Notes under the pieces: model-generated
Told to the model about the DNA's origin: nothing
What the model saw: the letters and a program-made list of their open reading frames with translations, nothing else
The model's database searches: none
Source of the DNA: Alphaproteobacteria bacterium
GTDB taxonomy: Bacteria; Pseudomonadota; Alphaproteobacteria; UBA9219; RFNS01
NCBI GenBank assembly: GCA_016124955.1
Contig: WGMR01000005.1
Coordinates: 186,001 to 250,000 of the forward strand
Direction: 5' to 3'
DNA: 64,000 bases
Shown: in pieces, positions 54,619-62,011 of the stretch
Layout of the letters: each line of letters starts with the position of its first letter
Position numbering within the stretch: position 1 is the stretch's first letter
Position numbers and translations under genes: made by a program

Positions 54619-55953
54619 GTGGGAATAGATCAAAACCGCCTTGTGGCAAATATCGAAGCCATCTCATCGACGCGCGTTTTCGGACGCGTGGCCGCGGTGC
54701 AAGGCTTGCTGATCGAAGTTGCCGGGGTCGAACGCCACCTTTCGGTGGGGGGGCGCTGCAATGTGATCGCGCGCGGCGGGCGCAAGGTTCTGTGCGAGGC
54801 CGTAGGCTTTCGTGAAAACCGGGCACTGTTGCTTCCCTATAGCGTGATCGACGGCATCGGGCTTGGGTGCAAGGCGGAGGTGGCGGATGCGCAGCCTGTC
54901 GTGTATCCGAGCGAAGCGTGGCTTGGCCGGGTTATCAATGCCCTGGGCGAACCGATTGACGGCAAGGGACCGTTACCGCGTGGCACCGTTCCTACGCCCA
55001 TCCGCAACACCCCGCCTTCGGCCCATGCGCGGCAGCGGGTTGGGGAAAAGCTCGATCTTGGTATCCGGGCCATCAACAGCTTCCTGACATGTTGCCGCGG
55101 ACAGCGCATGGGTATTTTCGCCGGTTCCGGCGTCGGTAAATCCATTCTGATGTCGATGGTGGCACGCTATACGTCGGCCGATATATCGATCATCGGCCTT
55201 GTGGGCGAACGCGGGCGCGAGGTGCAGGAATTTATCCATGACGATCTGGGGCCCGAAGGCCTTGCGCGCAGCATCGTGATTGTCGCCACATCAGACGAAG
55301 CGGCGCTGCTGCGCCGGCAGGCGGCCTATATGACGCTGGCGCTCGCCGAATATTTCCGCGACGACGGCAAGCAGGTGCTGTGCCTGATCGACAGCGTGAC
55401 CCGTTTTGCCATGGCGCAACGTGAAATCGGCCTCGCGGCCGGCGAACCGCCGACGACAAAGGGCTACCCGCCCACGACCTTTGCCGAATTGCCCAAGCTG
55501 CTTGAACGCGCCGGGCCGGGCGAGGCGGGCAAAGGTGCGATCACCGGCCTTTTCACCGTGCTTGTGGACGGCGACGATCATAACGAACCGATTGCCGATG
55601 CCGTGCGCGGCATCCTTGATGGGCATATCGTGCTGGAGCGCGCGATTGCCGAGCGCGGGCGTTACCCCGCCATCAATATCCTGCGCAGCATTTCGCGCAC
55701 CATGCCTGCTTGCAACAGCGACCGCGAGAACGAGCTGGTGACGCGTGCGCGCCGTTACCTTGCGGCCTATGAAAACATGGCCGAGCTGATCAGGCTCGGC
55801 GCCTATCGCCGCGGCAGCGACCCGGAAACCGACGAGGCGATCCAGTATTACCCGGTGGTCGAGGATTTTCTGCGTCAGGACAAGGCCGAGCGCGATAATC
55901 TGGGGGAAGGCTATGCCAAGCTGGCCGGGGTGCTCGGCGTGCAATGGCCATAA
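54619..55953 (+). CDS. fliI: Flagellum-specific ATPase FliI
   Basis: The 444-residue ATPase powers the flagellar export apparatus. The Walker A motif AGSGVGKS lies at residues 168-175, with [10 protein letters not shown] and [20 protein letters not shown] after it. The start is GTG with GGGAG 10 bases upstream. It faces ctrA divergently and is followed 6 bases later by fliJ. Confidence 0.97.
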
Positions 55954-55959
55954 CGCGCC

Positions 55960-56385
55960 ATGAAAAGCATCGCCACGCTCATCAAATTGCAGAAAAGCCG
56001 GGTCGATGAACAGCGCCAGATTCTGGCGGAACAACAATCCATTCTCGATCGCATTGAACAGGAAGTCGTGCAGCTTGCAACCCAGCAGGCAATCGAACAG
56101 GAAGCCGTGCGCGCCGCGCCGGAAACGAGCAGCACATATGGCGCTTTCGTAAAATGGGCGACCGAACGCGCCCGGCAACTGGAAGTTGCGCGTTTTGCGG
56201 CGGTTGCGGCCGTGGAGCAGGCGCGCGAGGTGCTTGCCGAACTGTTCGAGGAACAGAAGCGCTATGAAATCGTTGCCGCCAACCGTGCCGCCGAGGAAGA
56301 GAAAGAAAAGTTGAAGCAGGAGCAGGGCGAGCTGGACGAAACCGCCGTGATGAACTATGAGCGCAAGCAGAGGGAAGGAAAATAA
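55960..56385 (+). CDS. fliJ: Flagellar export protein FliJ-like
   Basis: The 141-residue product is nearly all coiled coil, rich in Gln, Glu, Ala and Lys, as in FliJ, the stalk-like partner of FliI. Sequence similarity is weak in this family, so the assignment rests on the position 6 bases after fliI, the length and the helical pattern. Confidence 0.85.
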   Translation: MKSIATLIKLQKSRVDEQRQILAEQQSILDRIEQEVVQLATQQAIEQEAVRAAPETSSTYGAFVKWATERARQLEVARFAAVAAVEQAREVLAELFEEQKRYEIVAANRAAEEEKEKLKQEQGELDETAVMNYERKQREGK

Positions 56386-56391
56386 CCCGGC

Positions 56392-57210
56392 ATGCCAGAC
56401 AAACAACGCATCATGATGTGCGCGCCTGATCATTATGAGGTCAGTTACGTTATCAATGCCTGGATGGAGGGGCAGATCGGCCGGGCGGACCGCACGCTGG
56501 CCGTGCGCCAGTGGAACGATTTGCATGCCATTATCGCGCGCTATGCCGATATTGTGCTGCAACCTCCGCAGCCCGGCTTGCCCGATCTCGTATTCACGGC
56601 CAATGCCGGTTTCGTGATCGGCGATATTGCTGTGGTCAGCCATTTTCGCAATACCGAGCGCAAGGGCGAAGAAAAATACGACCACGAATTTTTTAAATCA
56701 GCCGGTTTCAAGATCGCCGATTGGCCGAAGGACGCGCTGTTTGAAGGCGCGGGCGATGCGCTGCTTGATCGCGGCGCAAGGCTGATATGGACGGCCTATG
56801 GCCTGCGTTCCGATGCCCGTGCCGCCACGCTGCTGGGACAGGTTTATGGGCGGGAAGTTGTGACGCTTAAGCTCGTCAACCCGCACTTCTATCACCTCGA
56901 TACCTGTCTGTGCCCGCTTACGGGCGGCTATGTGCTTTACTACCCCGATGCCTTCGATGCCGAAAGTCGCGGCAAGATTGAGTCTGTTGTGCCGGCGGGC
57001 AGGCGTATTGTTGCCAGCAAAGAGGATGCTTTTGCCTTTGCCTGCAACGCCGTTGACCTTGCGCCGCGTGTTGTGATGGGTAATGCCAGCGAAGGGCTGC
57101 AACAGGCGCTGCGCGCCAAGGGCTTTGATCCCATCGTCACCCCGCTGGGCGAATTCATCAAGGCGGGGGGCAGTGCCAAGTGCCTTACGCTTAAGCTGGT
57201 TGAGGAATAA
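56392..57210 (+). CDS. Amidinohydrolase, ArgZ-like arginine dihydrolase candidate
   Basis: This 272-residue protein belongs to the guanidine-modifying superfamily (arginine deiminase, dimethylargininase, amidinotransferase). Catalytic candidates are Cys264 in GGSAKCLTL, His168 in FYHLDTCLCPL, Glu118 and Asp122 in FEGAGDAL, and Asn71 in FTANAG. The positions Asn71, His168 and Cys264 equal those I recall for the dihydrolase domain of cyanobacterial ArgZ/AgrE, where Asn71 distinguishes arginine dihydrolase (arginine to ornithine, two ammonia and CO2) from deiminase. A standalone domain of this length is plausible. It starts 6 bases after fliJ and lies 90 bases before argG. Dimethylargininase or deiminase activity cannot be excluded. 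Confidence 0.8.
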   Translation: MPDKQRIMMCAPDHYEVSYVINAWMEGQIGRADRTLAVRQWNDLHAIIARYADIVLQPPQPGLPDLVFTANAGFVIGDIAVVSHFRNTERKGEEKYDHEFFKSAGFKIADWPKDALFEGAGDALLDRGARLIWTAYGLRSDARAATLLGQVYGREVVTLKLVNPHFYHLDTCLCPLTGGYVLYYPDAFDAESRGKIESVVPAGRRIVASKEDAFAFACNAVDLAPRVVMGNASEGLQQALRAKGFDPIVTPLGEFIKAGGSAKCLTLKLVEE

Positions 57211-57300
57211 GTTTAAGCCAGCCGGCCATAACCCGGATTTTTCTTGATTTTACCCCGATTTCCGTCATTTTAGCGCCAGACAGATATTCCGGGGGTAAGC

Positions 57301-58536
57301 ATGCAGGTACAGGAACTCAAGGGCCAGACAATCGCTTTCGCCGCATCCGGCGGGCTCGATAGCTGCACGATCACGCATTGGCTGACATCGCTGGGCGTCA
57401 AGGTTGTCGCCTTCACGGCCGATCTTGGCCAGCCGGACGAGGTGGATTTCGGCGCAATCGAGAAGCGCATGCGCGCCAGCGGCGCGGTCGATTATGTCGC
57501 GGTGCCGCTGCAGGAACGGATGGCGGAAGCCGGGCTTGAGGTCGTGCAGGCGCAAAGCACCTATGAAGGCCGTTACTGGAACACCACCGGCATGGGCCGC
57601 GTGGTAACCGTAAGTGGCTTGCTGCCCGAAATCGTGAAGCGCGGGATCAAGATATTCAGCCACGGCGCGACCGGCCGCGGTAACGACCAGATCCGCTTCC
57701 AGCTTATGACCAACATGCTGCAACCGAGCATGGAAGTGTATGCCCCGTGGCGTGACGAAGAATTCCTGAAGCGTTTCCCCGGCCGCCAGCAGATGATCGC
57801 TTATTGCGAACAGCAAAATGTGCCGATCACGGCCACGCGCGAGAAACCCTATTCGACCGATGCCAACATGCTTGGCCTTACGCACGAAGGCGGCAAGCTG
57901 GAAGATATCACCACCGCACCGGATATCGTGACCCCGGGCATGGGCGTGTGGGCCAGCGATGCGCCCGCAAAACCCGAAGAAGTCGTGATCCGGTTCGAGA
58001 AGGGCCGCCCGGTCCAGATCAACGGCGCCAAGGTGAACGGGTTGCAAGCAATGCTGCAAGCCAACCAGATCGCCGGCAGGCACGGCGTGGGCATCGGCGC
58101 GCACCTGGTCGAAAACCGCTTTATCGGCGTTAAATCGCGCGGCGTGTATGAAGCGCCGGGCATGGAATTGCTTGGCACGGCTTATGCGTATCTGGTTCAG
58201 CTCGTGCTCGATCGCCGTTCGCGCGAAATCTTCGATCAGCTCGGGCTGCTGTATGCCAAGCAGATTTATCAAGGTTATTACTACGATCTGTGCTCGCAGA
58301 TGATCAGGGCTTCGCTTGAACAGGTTACGCGCCTTATTACGGGTACGATAACCTTGCGGCTGTTGCGCGGCGTTGCCCAATATGTAAAGGCCGAAGCGGC
58401 GCCGCATTCGCTCTTCACGCTGGACGGTTCGATGGAAGCGGAAGGCAGCTTCAACCACGCGGATTCGGAAGGGTTCCTGCGCGTGCTGGCCGTCAATGCC
58501 CGCGCCATCGCGGCGACCAAGCAGCTGAAAGGCTAG
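57301..58536 (+). CDS. argG: Argininosuccinate synthase, divergent
   Basis: The 411-residue protein makes argininosuccinate from citrulline and aspartate with ATP. The pyrophosphatase-type P-loop is AASGGLDSC (residues 14-22), differing from the usual YSGGLDTS. Other family stretches are FTADLGQPDEVDFGA, SHGATGRGNDQIRFQ, STDANMLGLTHEGGKLEDI, GRHGVGIGAHLVENRFIGVK and SRGVYEAPGMELL. It mixes features of the longer E. coli-type and the common type I enzymes. It starts after a GGGGG site. Its stop overlaps the converging FliK-like gene by 4 bases. No argH is in the window. Confidence 0.9.
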   Translation: MQVQELKGQTIAFAASGGLDSCTITHWLTSLGVKVVAFTADLGQPDEVDFGAIEKRMRASGAVDYVAVPLQERMAEAGLEVVQAQSTYEGRYWNTTGMGRVVTVSGLLPEIVKRGIKIFSHGATGRGNDQIRFQLMTNMLQPSMEVYAPWRDEEFLKRFPGRQQMIAYCEQQNVPITATREKPYSTDANMLGLTHEGGKLEDITTAPDIVTPGMGVWASDAPAKPEEVVIRFEKGRPVQINGAKVNGLQAMLQANQIAGRHGVGIGAHLVENRFIGVKSRGVYEAPGMELLGTAYAYLVQLVLDRRSREIFDQLGLLYAKQIYQGYYYDLCSQMIRASLEQVTRLITGTITLRLLRGVAQYVKAEAAPHSLFTLDGSMEAEGSFNHADSEGFLRVLAVNARAIAATKQLKG

Positions 58537-60170
58537 GCCAGCGAAACCGCTTCGTGCGGCGCATTCAGGAATCCTATCCAGTTCCCGCGCCCGTGCTGGA
58601 AATTTATATTTCCGGCGTAATTGATCAGCACAAGCGCGTCGCTGAACGCGCCCTGCAGGTCGCGCTCCAGCCCCCGCCCAAGATCGCGATCGCTGCGGAT
58701 AATCAGATCAAGCTTTTTCGGCTGCACGAAGCCATCGAGCTGCATCGCGCCAAGACGCGTGAAAGTCACGTCGATCAGGAAACGCGTTTGCTGCGCTTCC
58801 TTTTTGTCCTCGGCCGTTTCCTGCCCGGCTTTGTGACGATCGCGGTGCACATACAAATTCAGCGCACTCATGCCGAATTGATCGAGGAAGGGCAGGTGGT
58901 AGTGCCGCCATTCGCCTACTACCGGGTCGGTTGCGGTGCGGACGCCGCCGCGCAGCTCATCCGACAGCAACTTGAGCAGCGCATGCTTGCCTATTTTATC
59001 GAGTGCTTCGCTCGCGCGCTGCCCCAGCAACCCGCGCACATCGCCCTGGTTCAGGGCCGAAAAGAGAAACAGCATCGCGCTGCTCATTTGCTGGCCGGGC
59101 TGGGGGATACGATTTTGCACGATCTGCTGGCGCAGGCCGGGGTCGATGCTGCCGAGGGCATCGAGCACCTGCTTCAACGCCGGCCATTCGGCACCTTCGG
59201 CCAGTGTCGGCAGCGCTGTATCGGGCCGGGCCGTTGCAATGGTGCTTAAAAGCAATTGCGTGCCCACGGGCCAATTGGCGGCCTGCCGCACGAAAAGCGT
59301 GTTTTCCCCGGCATTGACCACGACCTGCCCACCGGGTGTGTTGGCGATCACGGTCGCGAGGATTTTATCGCCCGTTGCTGTCAGCTTGGCTTGTGCCCCG
59401 GCGGCCACGGCATTCAGGTGGAAATTGATGTTCTGGCCGGGCTTGAAGGTGATGGCGGTGCCTGCCGTTGCGTTGAGCGTACCGGCAGCATTTTGCTGAC
59501 CTTGCGGCAGAGATGTGGGTGCACGCGCAGCCACTTCACTTTGCGCGGCAGGGTGAAGAATGCTGCCAGTGGTGTTTTGCAGATAGCTGACCGATTGCTG
59601 CGTGAAATTTCTAATTTGCTGCAAAAGCCCGCTGGTTGCCGTTTGCAAGGGTTGCTGCTGAATGGTTTGCTGCGCGGCGGGGGCGAATTGCTGGAATAAT
59701 TTGCTGGCGTCCTGCGGTAGAACGAAGGCCGTCAGGTTTTGCCCCGGCTTTATGGCGGACGAGGCGGCAGAGTTCGTTGCCGCCGCTTGCGACCGTGTTT
59801 GCACGGGCTGGTTGACATAATCGACCAGAAGCGTGGCCTTGGCCGGCGGGTTGCCCGGCTGAAGCTGGATATAGGCGTTGCTTTTATCGGCCTGCAGCAC
59901 GCTAAGCAGCTGTTGCAGCTGCTGGCTTTTGATTTGCTCGAACAGCGTTCTGGGAAGCACGAGCTGCACATCACCCTGCGGGGTGCGGATTTGCGCCTGA
60001 CCGGCCTCCAGATTCGTCGTGAGCGTGCCGCCAAGCAGGAGCTGGCGTTCAAGTTTTATGAGCTGCTGCGGCAACTGCTTGACAATGGTTTCAATGGCGG
60101 CGATTTGCTGCGCGACCGTGACGGGCAGCGCAAGTTCGGGCGGCAGTGCGGCCGGGATGATATCCACCAT
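58533..60170 (-). CDS. FliK-like hook-length control protein candidate
   Basis: The 545-residue product is rich in Gln, Ala and Pro in the first 250 residues, followed by a beta-rich middle (LTATGDKILATVIANTPGGQ) and a compact C-terminal domain (VTFTRLGAMQLDGFVQPKK, then LIIRSDRDLGRGLERDLQ) that resembles the Flg_hook domain of FliK. It has no signal peptide. Position at the end of flhA-flhF-flhG supports a flagellar role, but the family match is weak. It begins 18 bases after flhG. Confidence 0.6.
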   Translation of the reverse strand: MVDIIPAALPPELALPVTVAQQIAAIETIVKQLPQQLIKLERQLLLGGTLTTNLEAGQAQIRTPQGDVQLVLPRTLFEQIKSQQLQQLLSVLQADKSNAYIQLQPGNPPAKATLLVDYVNQPVQTRSQAAATNSAASSAIKPGQNLTAFVLPQDASKLFQQFAPAAQQTIQQQPLQTATSGLLQQIRNFTQQSVSYLQNTTGSILHPAAQSEVAARAPTSLPQGQQNAAGTLNATAGTAITFKPGQNINFHLNAVAAGAQAKLTATGDKILATVIANTPGGQVVVNAGENTLFVRQAANWPVGTQLLLSTIATARPDTALPTLAEGAEWPALKQVLDALGSIDPGLRQQIVQNRIPQPGQQMSSAMLFLFSALNQGDVRGLLGQRASEALDKIGKHALLKLLSDELRGGVRTATDPVVGEWRHYHLPFLDQFGMSALNLYVHRDRHKAGQETAEDKKEAQQTRFLIDVTFTRLGAMQLDGFVQPKKLDLIIRSDRDLGRGLERDLQGAFSDALVLINYAGNINFQHGRGNWIGFLNAPHEAVSLA

Positions 60171-60188: not shown

Positions 60189-60989
60189 CTACCCGAGAAT
60201 TTCTTTGGCGATTGCCTGCACGTCGCTTGCGGCATCGGAGACGGGCGAGCGGACAAGCAGCGAGGTTTGGGCGCGGATCGCATCGCGCACCTTGGCGTCG
60301 CGCCTTATGATGCCGGCCAGCGGCGGCGTGTATTGCAGGAAGCTTTCGCAAGCCTTCTTGATAGTTTCGTATGTTTTTTGTCCGTCTGCCTTGTTGGTTG
60401 CCATATTGACGATCACGCGCATGTCGGCCTTGGGGTTGGCGGCGCGACCGAGCTTGATGAAGGCGTATGCGTCCGTCAGGGAGGTCGGTTCGTCGGTGAT
60501 GACGACAAGCGTCGTTGCCGCAGGCCCGGCAAGCTGGCGTACCGAACGATCCACCCCGGCGCCGAGATCGACGATAACCCGGTCATAGTTGTTCGCAAGA
60601 GTCATCAGATCGTTGCGCAATTCAGCGAGGCGCTGGGTTGCAAGTGTCGCAAGGTTGCCGGAACCCGAACGGCCCGCCAAAACATCGAACCCGCCTTCTT
60701 CATAGCGGGTAATCGCGCCGGGCAGGGTGGTTTTGCCTTCGATGACCGCGCCGAGATCCAGTTCGGGCGTAAGGCCGAGCTGGATATCCACGTTCGCGAG
60801 CCCGAGATCGCCATCGAACAGCAGAACGCGCTTGCCGGCTTTGGCGAGCGCGCTGCAAAGGGTAATCGAAAACCATGTCTTGCCGACGCCGCCTTTGCCG
60901 CTGGCGACCGCGAGCATGTTGGGCGCTGTAAGCGGGGCGGGGGTGGCACCGCTGCCTGCGTGAGGTGTGAAGGAAATCGGGTCGGCCAT
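60189..60989 (-). CDS. flhG: Flagellar number regulator FlhG (MinD-like ATPase)
   Basis: This MinD/FleN-type P-loop ATPase (about 266 residues) has the deviant Walker A motif SGKGGVGKTWFSI and the family stretch FDGDLGLANVDIQLG, followed by VIVDLGAGVDRSV. FlhG limits flagellum number and stimulates the GTPase FlhF. I chose ATG 60989 because GGAG lies 7 bases upstream; ATG 60995 is possible. It begins 14 bases after flhF. Confidence 0.94.
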   Translation of the reverse strand: MADPISFTPHAGSGATPAPLTAPNMLAVASGKGGVGKTWFSITLCSALAKAGKRVLLFDGDLGLANVDIQLGLTPELDLGAVIEGKTTLPGAITRYEEGGFDVLAGRSGSGNLATLATQRLAELRNDLMTLANNYDRVIVDLGAGVDRSVRQLAGPAATTLVVITDEPTSLTDAYAFIKLGRAANPKADMRVIVNMATNKADGQKTYETIKKACESFLQYTPPLAGIIRRDAKVRDAIRAQTSLLVRSPVSDAASDVQAIAKEILG

Positions 60990-61003
60990 GGTCATTCTCC
61001 GCC

Positions 61004-62011
61004 TTATGCGTGGGTTCCGGTTGGTTTGTTGCTGGTTGCGCCTTGCTGCTTGCTTTCGGCTTCGGGAAGCAAAAGACGAGCGGTGGAAACAGGGTTGAGC
61101 GATTCAAGCGGCTTCGTGACGTCCGGCGAGCGGCTGATGCCTGCCAGCGGCAATTTCGTTTCATGCGCTATGCTCAGCGCGCTGCCGAAGCGGCGCGTCA
61201 TGTCGCCGCGGGTAAGCAGGATGCTGCTCGCGCCCAGTTCACGGAAGGCGGCGGCAAGGTCGCTTCCTTCCTGTATTTCATAGCCTGCGGGCATGACCAG
61301 CACGGCTTCCACGTCGTTCTTGGCCAGCATATCTTTAAGGTCTTTTCTGTCCTGCTTATCAAAAGGGTTGCAGCCGGCGGTATCGATCAGCACAAGATTG
61401 CCGCCGCCATGCACGCTAAGCGTATCACGCAGCGCCCCCGCATCTTCAATTTCAAGCAGCTTCAGTTTCAAAAGATTGGTGAAGGCCGCAAGCTGGCTAA
61501 TGCCGCCCGCCCGCACTGTGTCCGTCGTGATAACGCTGACGGGCTGGCCAAGCATTTTGGCGGCCGTTGCCATTTTGGCGGTGCTCAGGGTTTTTCCTGC
61601 GCCAGGCGGGCCGATCAGCATAAGCGGCTTGGTCGCCTTGCCGTCCAGGATCGGGCGGAACTGCATATGGGCGTCGAATGCGGCCGCGAGCGCGAGCACA
61701 GGGTCGTTCGCAGCATAGTGCACAGCCGTGGCCAGAAGCTTTTCCGAAAGCACGGCGGAAAGGCCGTGCTTGTAGAAACAATCAGCGAGCCCTTCAATCA
61801 GGTCGTTATCTGTATCGGTATCGGGGACCATGGCGGCGGCGCGCGCCATGCCATTGGCCTTGACCGCAACTTCGTCAACCGCGGCGGTCACGCGGACGCC
61901 GCCCATATCGTCGTCGCGCGTGGCAACGATGATCGCATGATCGCCGAGTGCATCGCGCACCTGACGCATGGCGTCTGTCATGTTTGGACCGTGGAATGAG
62001 CGTAACCGCAT
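61004..62011 (-). CDS. flhF: Flagellar biosynthesis GTPase FlhF
   Basis: This 335-residue SRP-type GTPase sets flagellum position. The G1 loop is GPPGAGKTLSTAKMA (about 133-147), followed by TTDTVRAGGISQLAAF and the G3 motif DTAG. The N-terminal B domain is short and the total length is below the roughly 390-450 residues of many homologues. It starts 1 base after the flhA stop. Confidence 0.94.
   Translation of the reverse strand: MRLRSFHGPNMTDAMRQVRDALGDHAIIVATRDDDMGGVRVTAAVDEVAVKANGMARAAAMVPDTDTDNDLIEGLADCFYKHGLSAVLSEKLLATAVHYAANDPVLALAAAFDAHMQFRPILDGKATKPLMLIGPPGAGKTLSTAKMATAAKMLGQPVSVITTDTVRAGGISQLAAFTNLLKLKLLEIEDAGALRDTLSVHGGGNLVLIDTAGCNPFDKQDRKDLKDMLAKNDVEAVLVMPAGYEIQEGSDLAAAFRELGASSILLTRGDMTRRFGSALSIAHETKLPLAGISRSPDVTKPLESLNPVSTARLLLPEAESKQQGATSNKPTGTHA

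Follow-up and report, generated by a model that had tools for sequence, protein, structure and literature searches.

A standalone candidate arginine dihydrolase of the ArgZ/AgrE type beside argG in an alphaproteobacterial flagellar locus

Most of what is known of arginine dihydrolase concerns a cyanobacterial fusion enzyme, of which it makes up one half. ArgZ of Synechocystis (Sll1336) and AgrE of Anabaena (Alr4995) are proteins of about 705 aa in which the N-terminal dihydrolase domain is followed by a C-terminal ornithine cyclodeaminase (OCD) domain, and a literature search, run mostly without subscription journals, found no paper describing an arginine dihydrolase like the present one outside cyanobacteria. 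The titles of deposited structures describe an ArgZ N71S mutant with a covalent reaction intermediate (6juz), a C264S mutant with substrate (6jv1) and a C264A mutant with arginine (6lrh). Canonical dimethylargininases (DDAH) and arginine deiminases (ADI) belong to the same superfamily of guanidino-group-modifying enzymes, while AstB, the N-succinylarginine dihydrolase, also releases two ammonia, but from succinylarginine. The 272-aa protein described here, encoded by a gene that we call argZ, is like the N-terminal domain of ArgZ and AgrE in fold (0.9-1.0 Å), numbering and catalytic residues, and has no cyclodeaminase domain.

The locus and the arginine genes of its genome

The window, a stretch of 64,000 nucleotides (C5:186001-250000), comes from an alphaproteobacterial genome of 1.93 Mb (11 contigs, 99% complete). 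In this window argZ starts 6 nt past the stop codon of fliJ and is followed by argG, whose last 4 nt are shared with a convergent gene:

54619..55953, + strand: fliI, flagellar export ATPase (context)
55960..56385, + strand: fliJ (context; Pfam FliJ E 1.8e-5, slightly below the curated cut-off)
56392..57210, + strand: argZ, standalone ArgZ/AgrE-type arginine dihydrolase candidate (272 aa, ATG start; Asn71, His168, Cys264)
57211..57300, + strand: gap between argZ and argG (90 nt; ribosome-binding-like GGGGGTAAG ahead of argG)
57301..58536, + strand: argG, argininosuccinate synthase (411 aa, TIGR00032 match)
58533..60170, - strand: convergent flagellar-cluster gene (no Pfam match)
60189..60995, - strand: MinD/FlhG-like P-loop ATPase (context)
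61004..62011, - strand: SRP54-type GTPase, FlhF-like (context)

A sequence-only reading had put an amidinohydrolase gene after fliJ and directly upstream of argG, and both placements hold, with fliI and fliJ upstream and the argG product matching TIGR00032 at 341.9 bits against a curated cut-off of 268.2. The argG gene at 57301-58536 is the single copy above the family cut-off in the source genome. Its product belongs to a divergent ArgG subfamily, with 62-75% identity within families f1 and f3 of the source order and about 35% to family f2 and to other alphaproteobacterial ArgG proteins. No terminator-like site was found between argZ and argG (57211..57300), so that co-transcription of the two genes is possible. 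A foreign base composition of argZ was considered and rejected, since its GC content and third-position GC fall inside the range of the neighbouring genes.

The genome holds the complete gene set of an ornithine-ammonia cycle, namely the arginine dihydrolase candidate (with its presumed reaction), ArgF, ArgG and ArgH. Indeed, argH and argJ are present, the ornithine transcarbamylase gene (argF) lies beside argD, and an aspartate transcarbamylase gene lies beside a dihydroorotase-like gene, argD and the latter neighbour being named by eye. On the other hand, the arginase/agmatinase family was not detected in the source genome, and neither OCD_Mu_crystall nor the archaeal-type OCD model TIGR00300 gave a match there. 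As no OCD of either kind was detected, few ornithine exits except ArgF are visible among the families searched, and the gene content would allow an ornithine-ammonia cycle. The storage role of cyanophycin known from cyanobacteria is not indicated, since no cyanophycin synthetase exceeds the cut-off in the source genome and the partial matches lie far below it.

Kinship with the cyanobacterial dihydrolase domain

The argZ protein aligns to AgrE without a gap, residues 3-271 on 3-271, with an E value of 7.8e-87 to the solved structure (6lrf); it also matches the ArgZ/Sll1336 structures 6juy and 6jv0, ungapped over residues 3-271, and its identity to AgrE and ArgZ is 49-50%. In the sequence search against solved structures AgrE and ArgZ come first (E about 1e-83 or better), and the next match is a P. 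aeruginosa-type DDAH at E 0.008. The residue numbering is that of AgrE throughout, and Asn71, His168 and Cys264 are identical residues, as the sequence-only reading had it; the asparagine does align to that of ArgZ. Across 23 orthologues the catalytic columns and much of the FTANA, FEGAGDAL, FYHLDTC and AKCLTL stretches are invariant. Furthermore, the AlphaFold model of the protein (pLDDT 93.6) superposes on ArgZ with Z 45.7 and 0.9 Å over 269 residues; with DDAH the values are Z 30.5 and 2.1 Å, and with ADI Z falls to 26.8. Canonical DDAH and ADI have the superfamily fold and the Cys/His catalytic residues in common with the argZ protein but, in the homologues compared, carry the Asp of an xRD motif where it has Asn71, and compare with it at Z about 30 or less and about 20% identity. 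With AstB (Z 28.6) the sequence is barely alignable, the profile comparison aligning the C-terminal half only, although the WVANAAT of E. coli AstB resembles, by eye, the FTANAG of the argZ protein.

Profile searches place the protein near the cyanobacterial families and outside their formal limits. It scores 346 bits on the NCBIfam bifunctional ArgZ model, 342.6 bits on the arginine dihydrolase model NF052232 (cut-off 450 bits), 236.3 bits on the DdaH-Mtb model NF045659 (cut-off 300 bits) and 54.6 bits or less on the remaining NCBIfam DDAH models, so that none of the NCBIfam models reaches its curated cut-off. Every standalone orthologue tested also stays under the 450 bits of NF052232, on which cyanobacterial-type domains score 480-537 bits. 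The bifunctional AgrE/ArgZ family (NF052231) does not include the argZ protein, as its reading frame stops at residue 272 with no fused C-terminal ornithine cyclodeaminase.

In the maximum-likelihood tree the argZ protein falls in a standalone clade of 21 proteins (support 100/96), and the cyanobacterial ArgZ/AgrE proteins form a separate clade of 17 rows (100/98), beside which stands a Rhodocyclaceae protein (89/67). All 39 join in one clade (98/92) in which the standalone and cyanobacterial groups are sisters, neither being nested in the other; the actinobacterial DdaH-Mtb, second alphaproteobacterial and canonical DDAH/ADI groups branch outside it. The cyanobacterial members examined all extend about 430 residues past the domain, and in the standalone proteins the chain stops no more than about 14 residues from its limit. 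The argZ protein is thus a sister type, predicted to work like the ArgZ dihydrolase domain, and not a member of NF052232 or of the bifunctional family. The ArgZ-like identity proposed from the sequence alone has come through alignment, tree, structure and neighbourhood comparisons. A cyanobacterial-type bifunctional argZ was also seen on a contig binned as Verrucomicrobia (L118), possibly misbinned or transferred.

While Asn71 is common to these proteins, it was rejected as a sole marker of ArgZ. In an alignment of 76 proteins, Asn occupies column 71 in the ArgZ group, in the kin of argZ, in the actinobacterial proteins named dimethylargininase and in the second alphaproteobacterial group, which shows about 37-42% identity. 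In the canonical DDAH/ADI-like homologues the column holds the Asp of an xRD motif; one small group near the second alphaproteobacterial group also has Asp. On this alignment Asn71 is a marker of an 'xAN' superclade, not of ArgZ alone. The actinobacterial DdaH/Rv2323c type (NF045659) shares Asn71 and about 36-39% identity with the argZ protein but forms a clade separate from it; the mycobacterial gene adjoins rocD and an Lrp regulator.

Distribution and neighbourhoods of the orthologues

Full-length orthologues of argZ occur in 8 relatives of the source order, with 53-60% identity. Some match is present in 13 of 39 genomes of this order, the source genome counted, a few of the further genomes having either a more distant homologue or a fragment cut off by the end of a contig; in a class-wide sample, 4 of 385 genomes (again with the source genome) fall in the same score band. 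Outside the order, the standalone form is found in Methylocapsa, Methylosinus, Methylocystis, Rhodoblastus and other alphaproteobacterial MAGs, and also in Rhodocyclaceae and Acidobacteriaceae MAGs. This patchy occurrence, together with the nesting of methanotroph proteins among those of the source order in the tree, suggests a history of transfer or of many losses.

The neighbours of these genes point to ornithine. An OCD gene lies directly upstream of the orthologue in Methylocystis rosea, Methylocystis sp. H62 and one alphaproteobacterial MAG, loci that also carry a divergent Lrp-type regulator. The OCD of M. rosea (L106) scores 517 bits on NF005762 (cut-off 350) and has orthologues in L111 and L130, and both it and that of the MAG match PF02423. 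Such Methylocystis-type loci are AgrE in two pieces, with the cyclodeaminase drawn from another family. In Methylosinus (L094, L097), rocD stands upstream of the orthologue (447 and 460 bits, cut-off 378.4). In the second alphaproteobacterial branch, rocD above the cut-off lies within 1.5 kb at 10 of 15 loci (L067, L069-L073, L075-L078) and, with the same flank size, at none of the 9 loci of canonical homologues (Fisher p 0.002, uncorrected for shared ancestry); the neighbouring rocD genes were located by tblastn, some of them beneath antisense ORFs. This second branch with rocD is likely an unannotated module leading from arginine through ornithine to glutamate semialdehyde. Within the 1.5 kb flanks of the window's argZ and its nearest kin, neither OCD nor RocD was found. 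A Streptomyces relative adjoins a gene of the SidA/PvdA monooxygenase family, which includes ornithine hydroxylases.

In M. ulcerans (L199, NZ_CP083743.1, 5335-9526), Lrp, ddaH, rocD and a permease gene lie together, a setting that fits an ornithine-forming enzyme, so that the dimethylargininase annotation may be wrong. Indeed, M. tuberculosis forms ornithine from arginine without a recognisable arginase homologue, and Rv2323c, annotated as a dimethylarginine dimethylaminohydrolase, is required for its growth on arginine (Hampel and colleagues, PMC4569260). Ornithine as the product accounts for these neighbourhoods and for the M. tuberculosis data, and citrulline does not; by kinship, ornithine would also be the product of the window's argZ protein.

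The pairing with argG is seen in the source genome only: in relatives with both genes, no argG lies in the flanking DNA compared, and a conserved argZ-argG operon is rejected. The sequence-only reading had linked the pairing to an ornithine-ammonia cycle; being confined to one genome, it is weak evidence for the cycle. In several filamentous cyanobacteria (L142, L150, L151, L158, L160), the bifunctional argZ is preceded, at a distance of about 4.5-6 kb, by an argG-like gene on the opposite strand, a proximity that is probably incidental.

Proposed reaction, likely fate of the ornithine and flagellar setting

From the PDB titles, the alignment and general background, a mechanism can be proposed in which Cys264 would attack the guanidinium carbon of arginine with His168 as general acid/base, and Asn71, replacing the usual Asp, would lead to release of both terminal nitrogens, so that ornithine is formed along with CO2 and two NH3. 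The ammonia would serve as a nitrogen supply, and the ornithine would re-enter arginine synthesis via ArgF in an ornithine-ammonia cycle or meet other ornithine needs. With ArgF, ArgG, ArgH and ArgJ present and no arginase/agmatinase or OCD detected, a return through ArgF or a use in those other needs is its most likely fate. The computations cover the homology and catalytic residues of the protein, its fold and clade, the gene inventory of the genome and the neighbourhoods of the orthologues, and it is the reaction of the argZ protein, its direction in vivo and the cycling with the adjacent argG that we infer. The protein very probably carries out the arginine dihydrolase reaction; that it is a standalone enzyme returning ornithine to ArgF-ArgG-ArgH we hold, as a whole reading, to be probable, and for a cycle running in vivo the chances appear even.

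A dimethylargininase or arginine deiminase would instead release citrulline, which ArgG and then ArgH would recycle to arginine as a methylarginine salvage unit. DDAH_eukar is the sole Pfam family above cut-off for the protein (54.6 bits), the DdaH-Mtb model gives its 236 bits, and the neighbouring ArgG does use citrulline as substrate. We nevertheless regard this as unlikely, because the protein matches the dihydrolase models and the ArgZ structures with much better scores, the tree places the protein outside the DDAH groups, Asn stands in place of the canonical Asp, the orthologues adjoin OCD or RocD, both of which require ornithine, and the linkage to argG is not found in relatives; furthermore, ornithine formation has been linked to the very mycobacterial relative that bears the DDAH name (PMC4569260). 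Another guanidino substrate, as for an amidinotransferase or a nitroimidazole or agmatine-type hydrolase, is suggested by little beyond the superfamily-wide fold (Z 20-28 to amidinotransferases, NnhA and agmatine deiminase) and seems very improbable, given that these families are far more distant and that the catalytic columns and surrounding motifs are invariant with arginine-bound AgrE and ArgZ.

If the enzyme is an arginine dihydrolase, it may still be purely catabolic or ornithine-supplying, its adjacency to argG accidental and no cycle involved. Such a reading is a serious one, which we place somewhat short of even: argZ and argG were not found together in the relatives that carry both, the same junction holds other genes in relatives, and it is OCD or RocD genes that stand beside orthologues. 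Against it, neither kind of OCD was detected and few ornithine exits except ArgF are visible in the families searched, and argZ and argG run in the same direction, no terminator-like site having been found in the gap.

The standalone clade points to a second way of making ornithine from arginine outside cyanobacteria, one that yields no urea. In this single-domain proteobacterial sister clade the module occurs unfused, and in some of the genomes its neighbours are distinct enzymes that consume ornithine. Whether the whole Asn71 branch, with the standalone proteobacterial and the actinobacterial Rv2323c-type proteins, consists of arginine dihydrolases is a closer question, on which we lean slightly towards yes. 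The route would then be a widespread, arginase-independent one with differing ornithine sinks: a fused OCD in cyanobacteria, a separate OCD in Methylocystis, RocD in Methylosinus, other alphaproteobacteria and mycobacteria, or, here, the ArgF-ArgG-ArgH arm. Taken more widely, the family has the look of a branch that degrades arginine and that databases in part mislabel as dimethylargininase, and the comparison suggests re-testing the product of the annotated dimethylargininase Rv2323c of M. tuberculosis.

The flagellar placement, which had seemed unexpected from the sequence alone, is put down to the convergent junction that follows fliJ, which is a permissive one, and is not itself conserved. 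When the junction following fliI-fliJ (56385-58536) was compared with its equivalents in relatives (L180-L198), genes resembling that at 58533..60170 (- strand) were found after fliJ, directly or past an inserted gene. The convergent gene follows fliI-fliJ immediately in G002, G013 and G008, while a response regulator gene is inserted first in G016 and another gene in G018 (names by eye). As junction content varies in this way, a conserved functional link of argZ to the flagellar genes was rejected; the junction between the two convergent runs is, on this comparison, one that tolerates insertions, argZ-argG being one of them.
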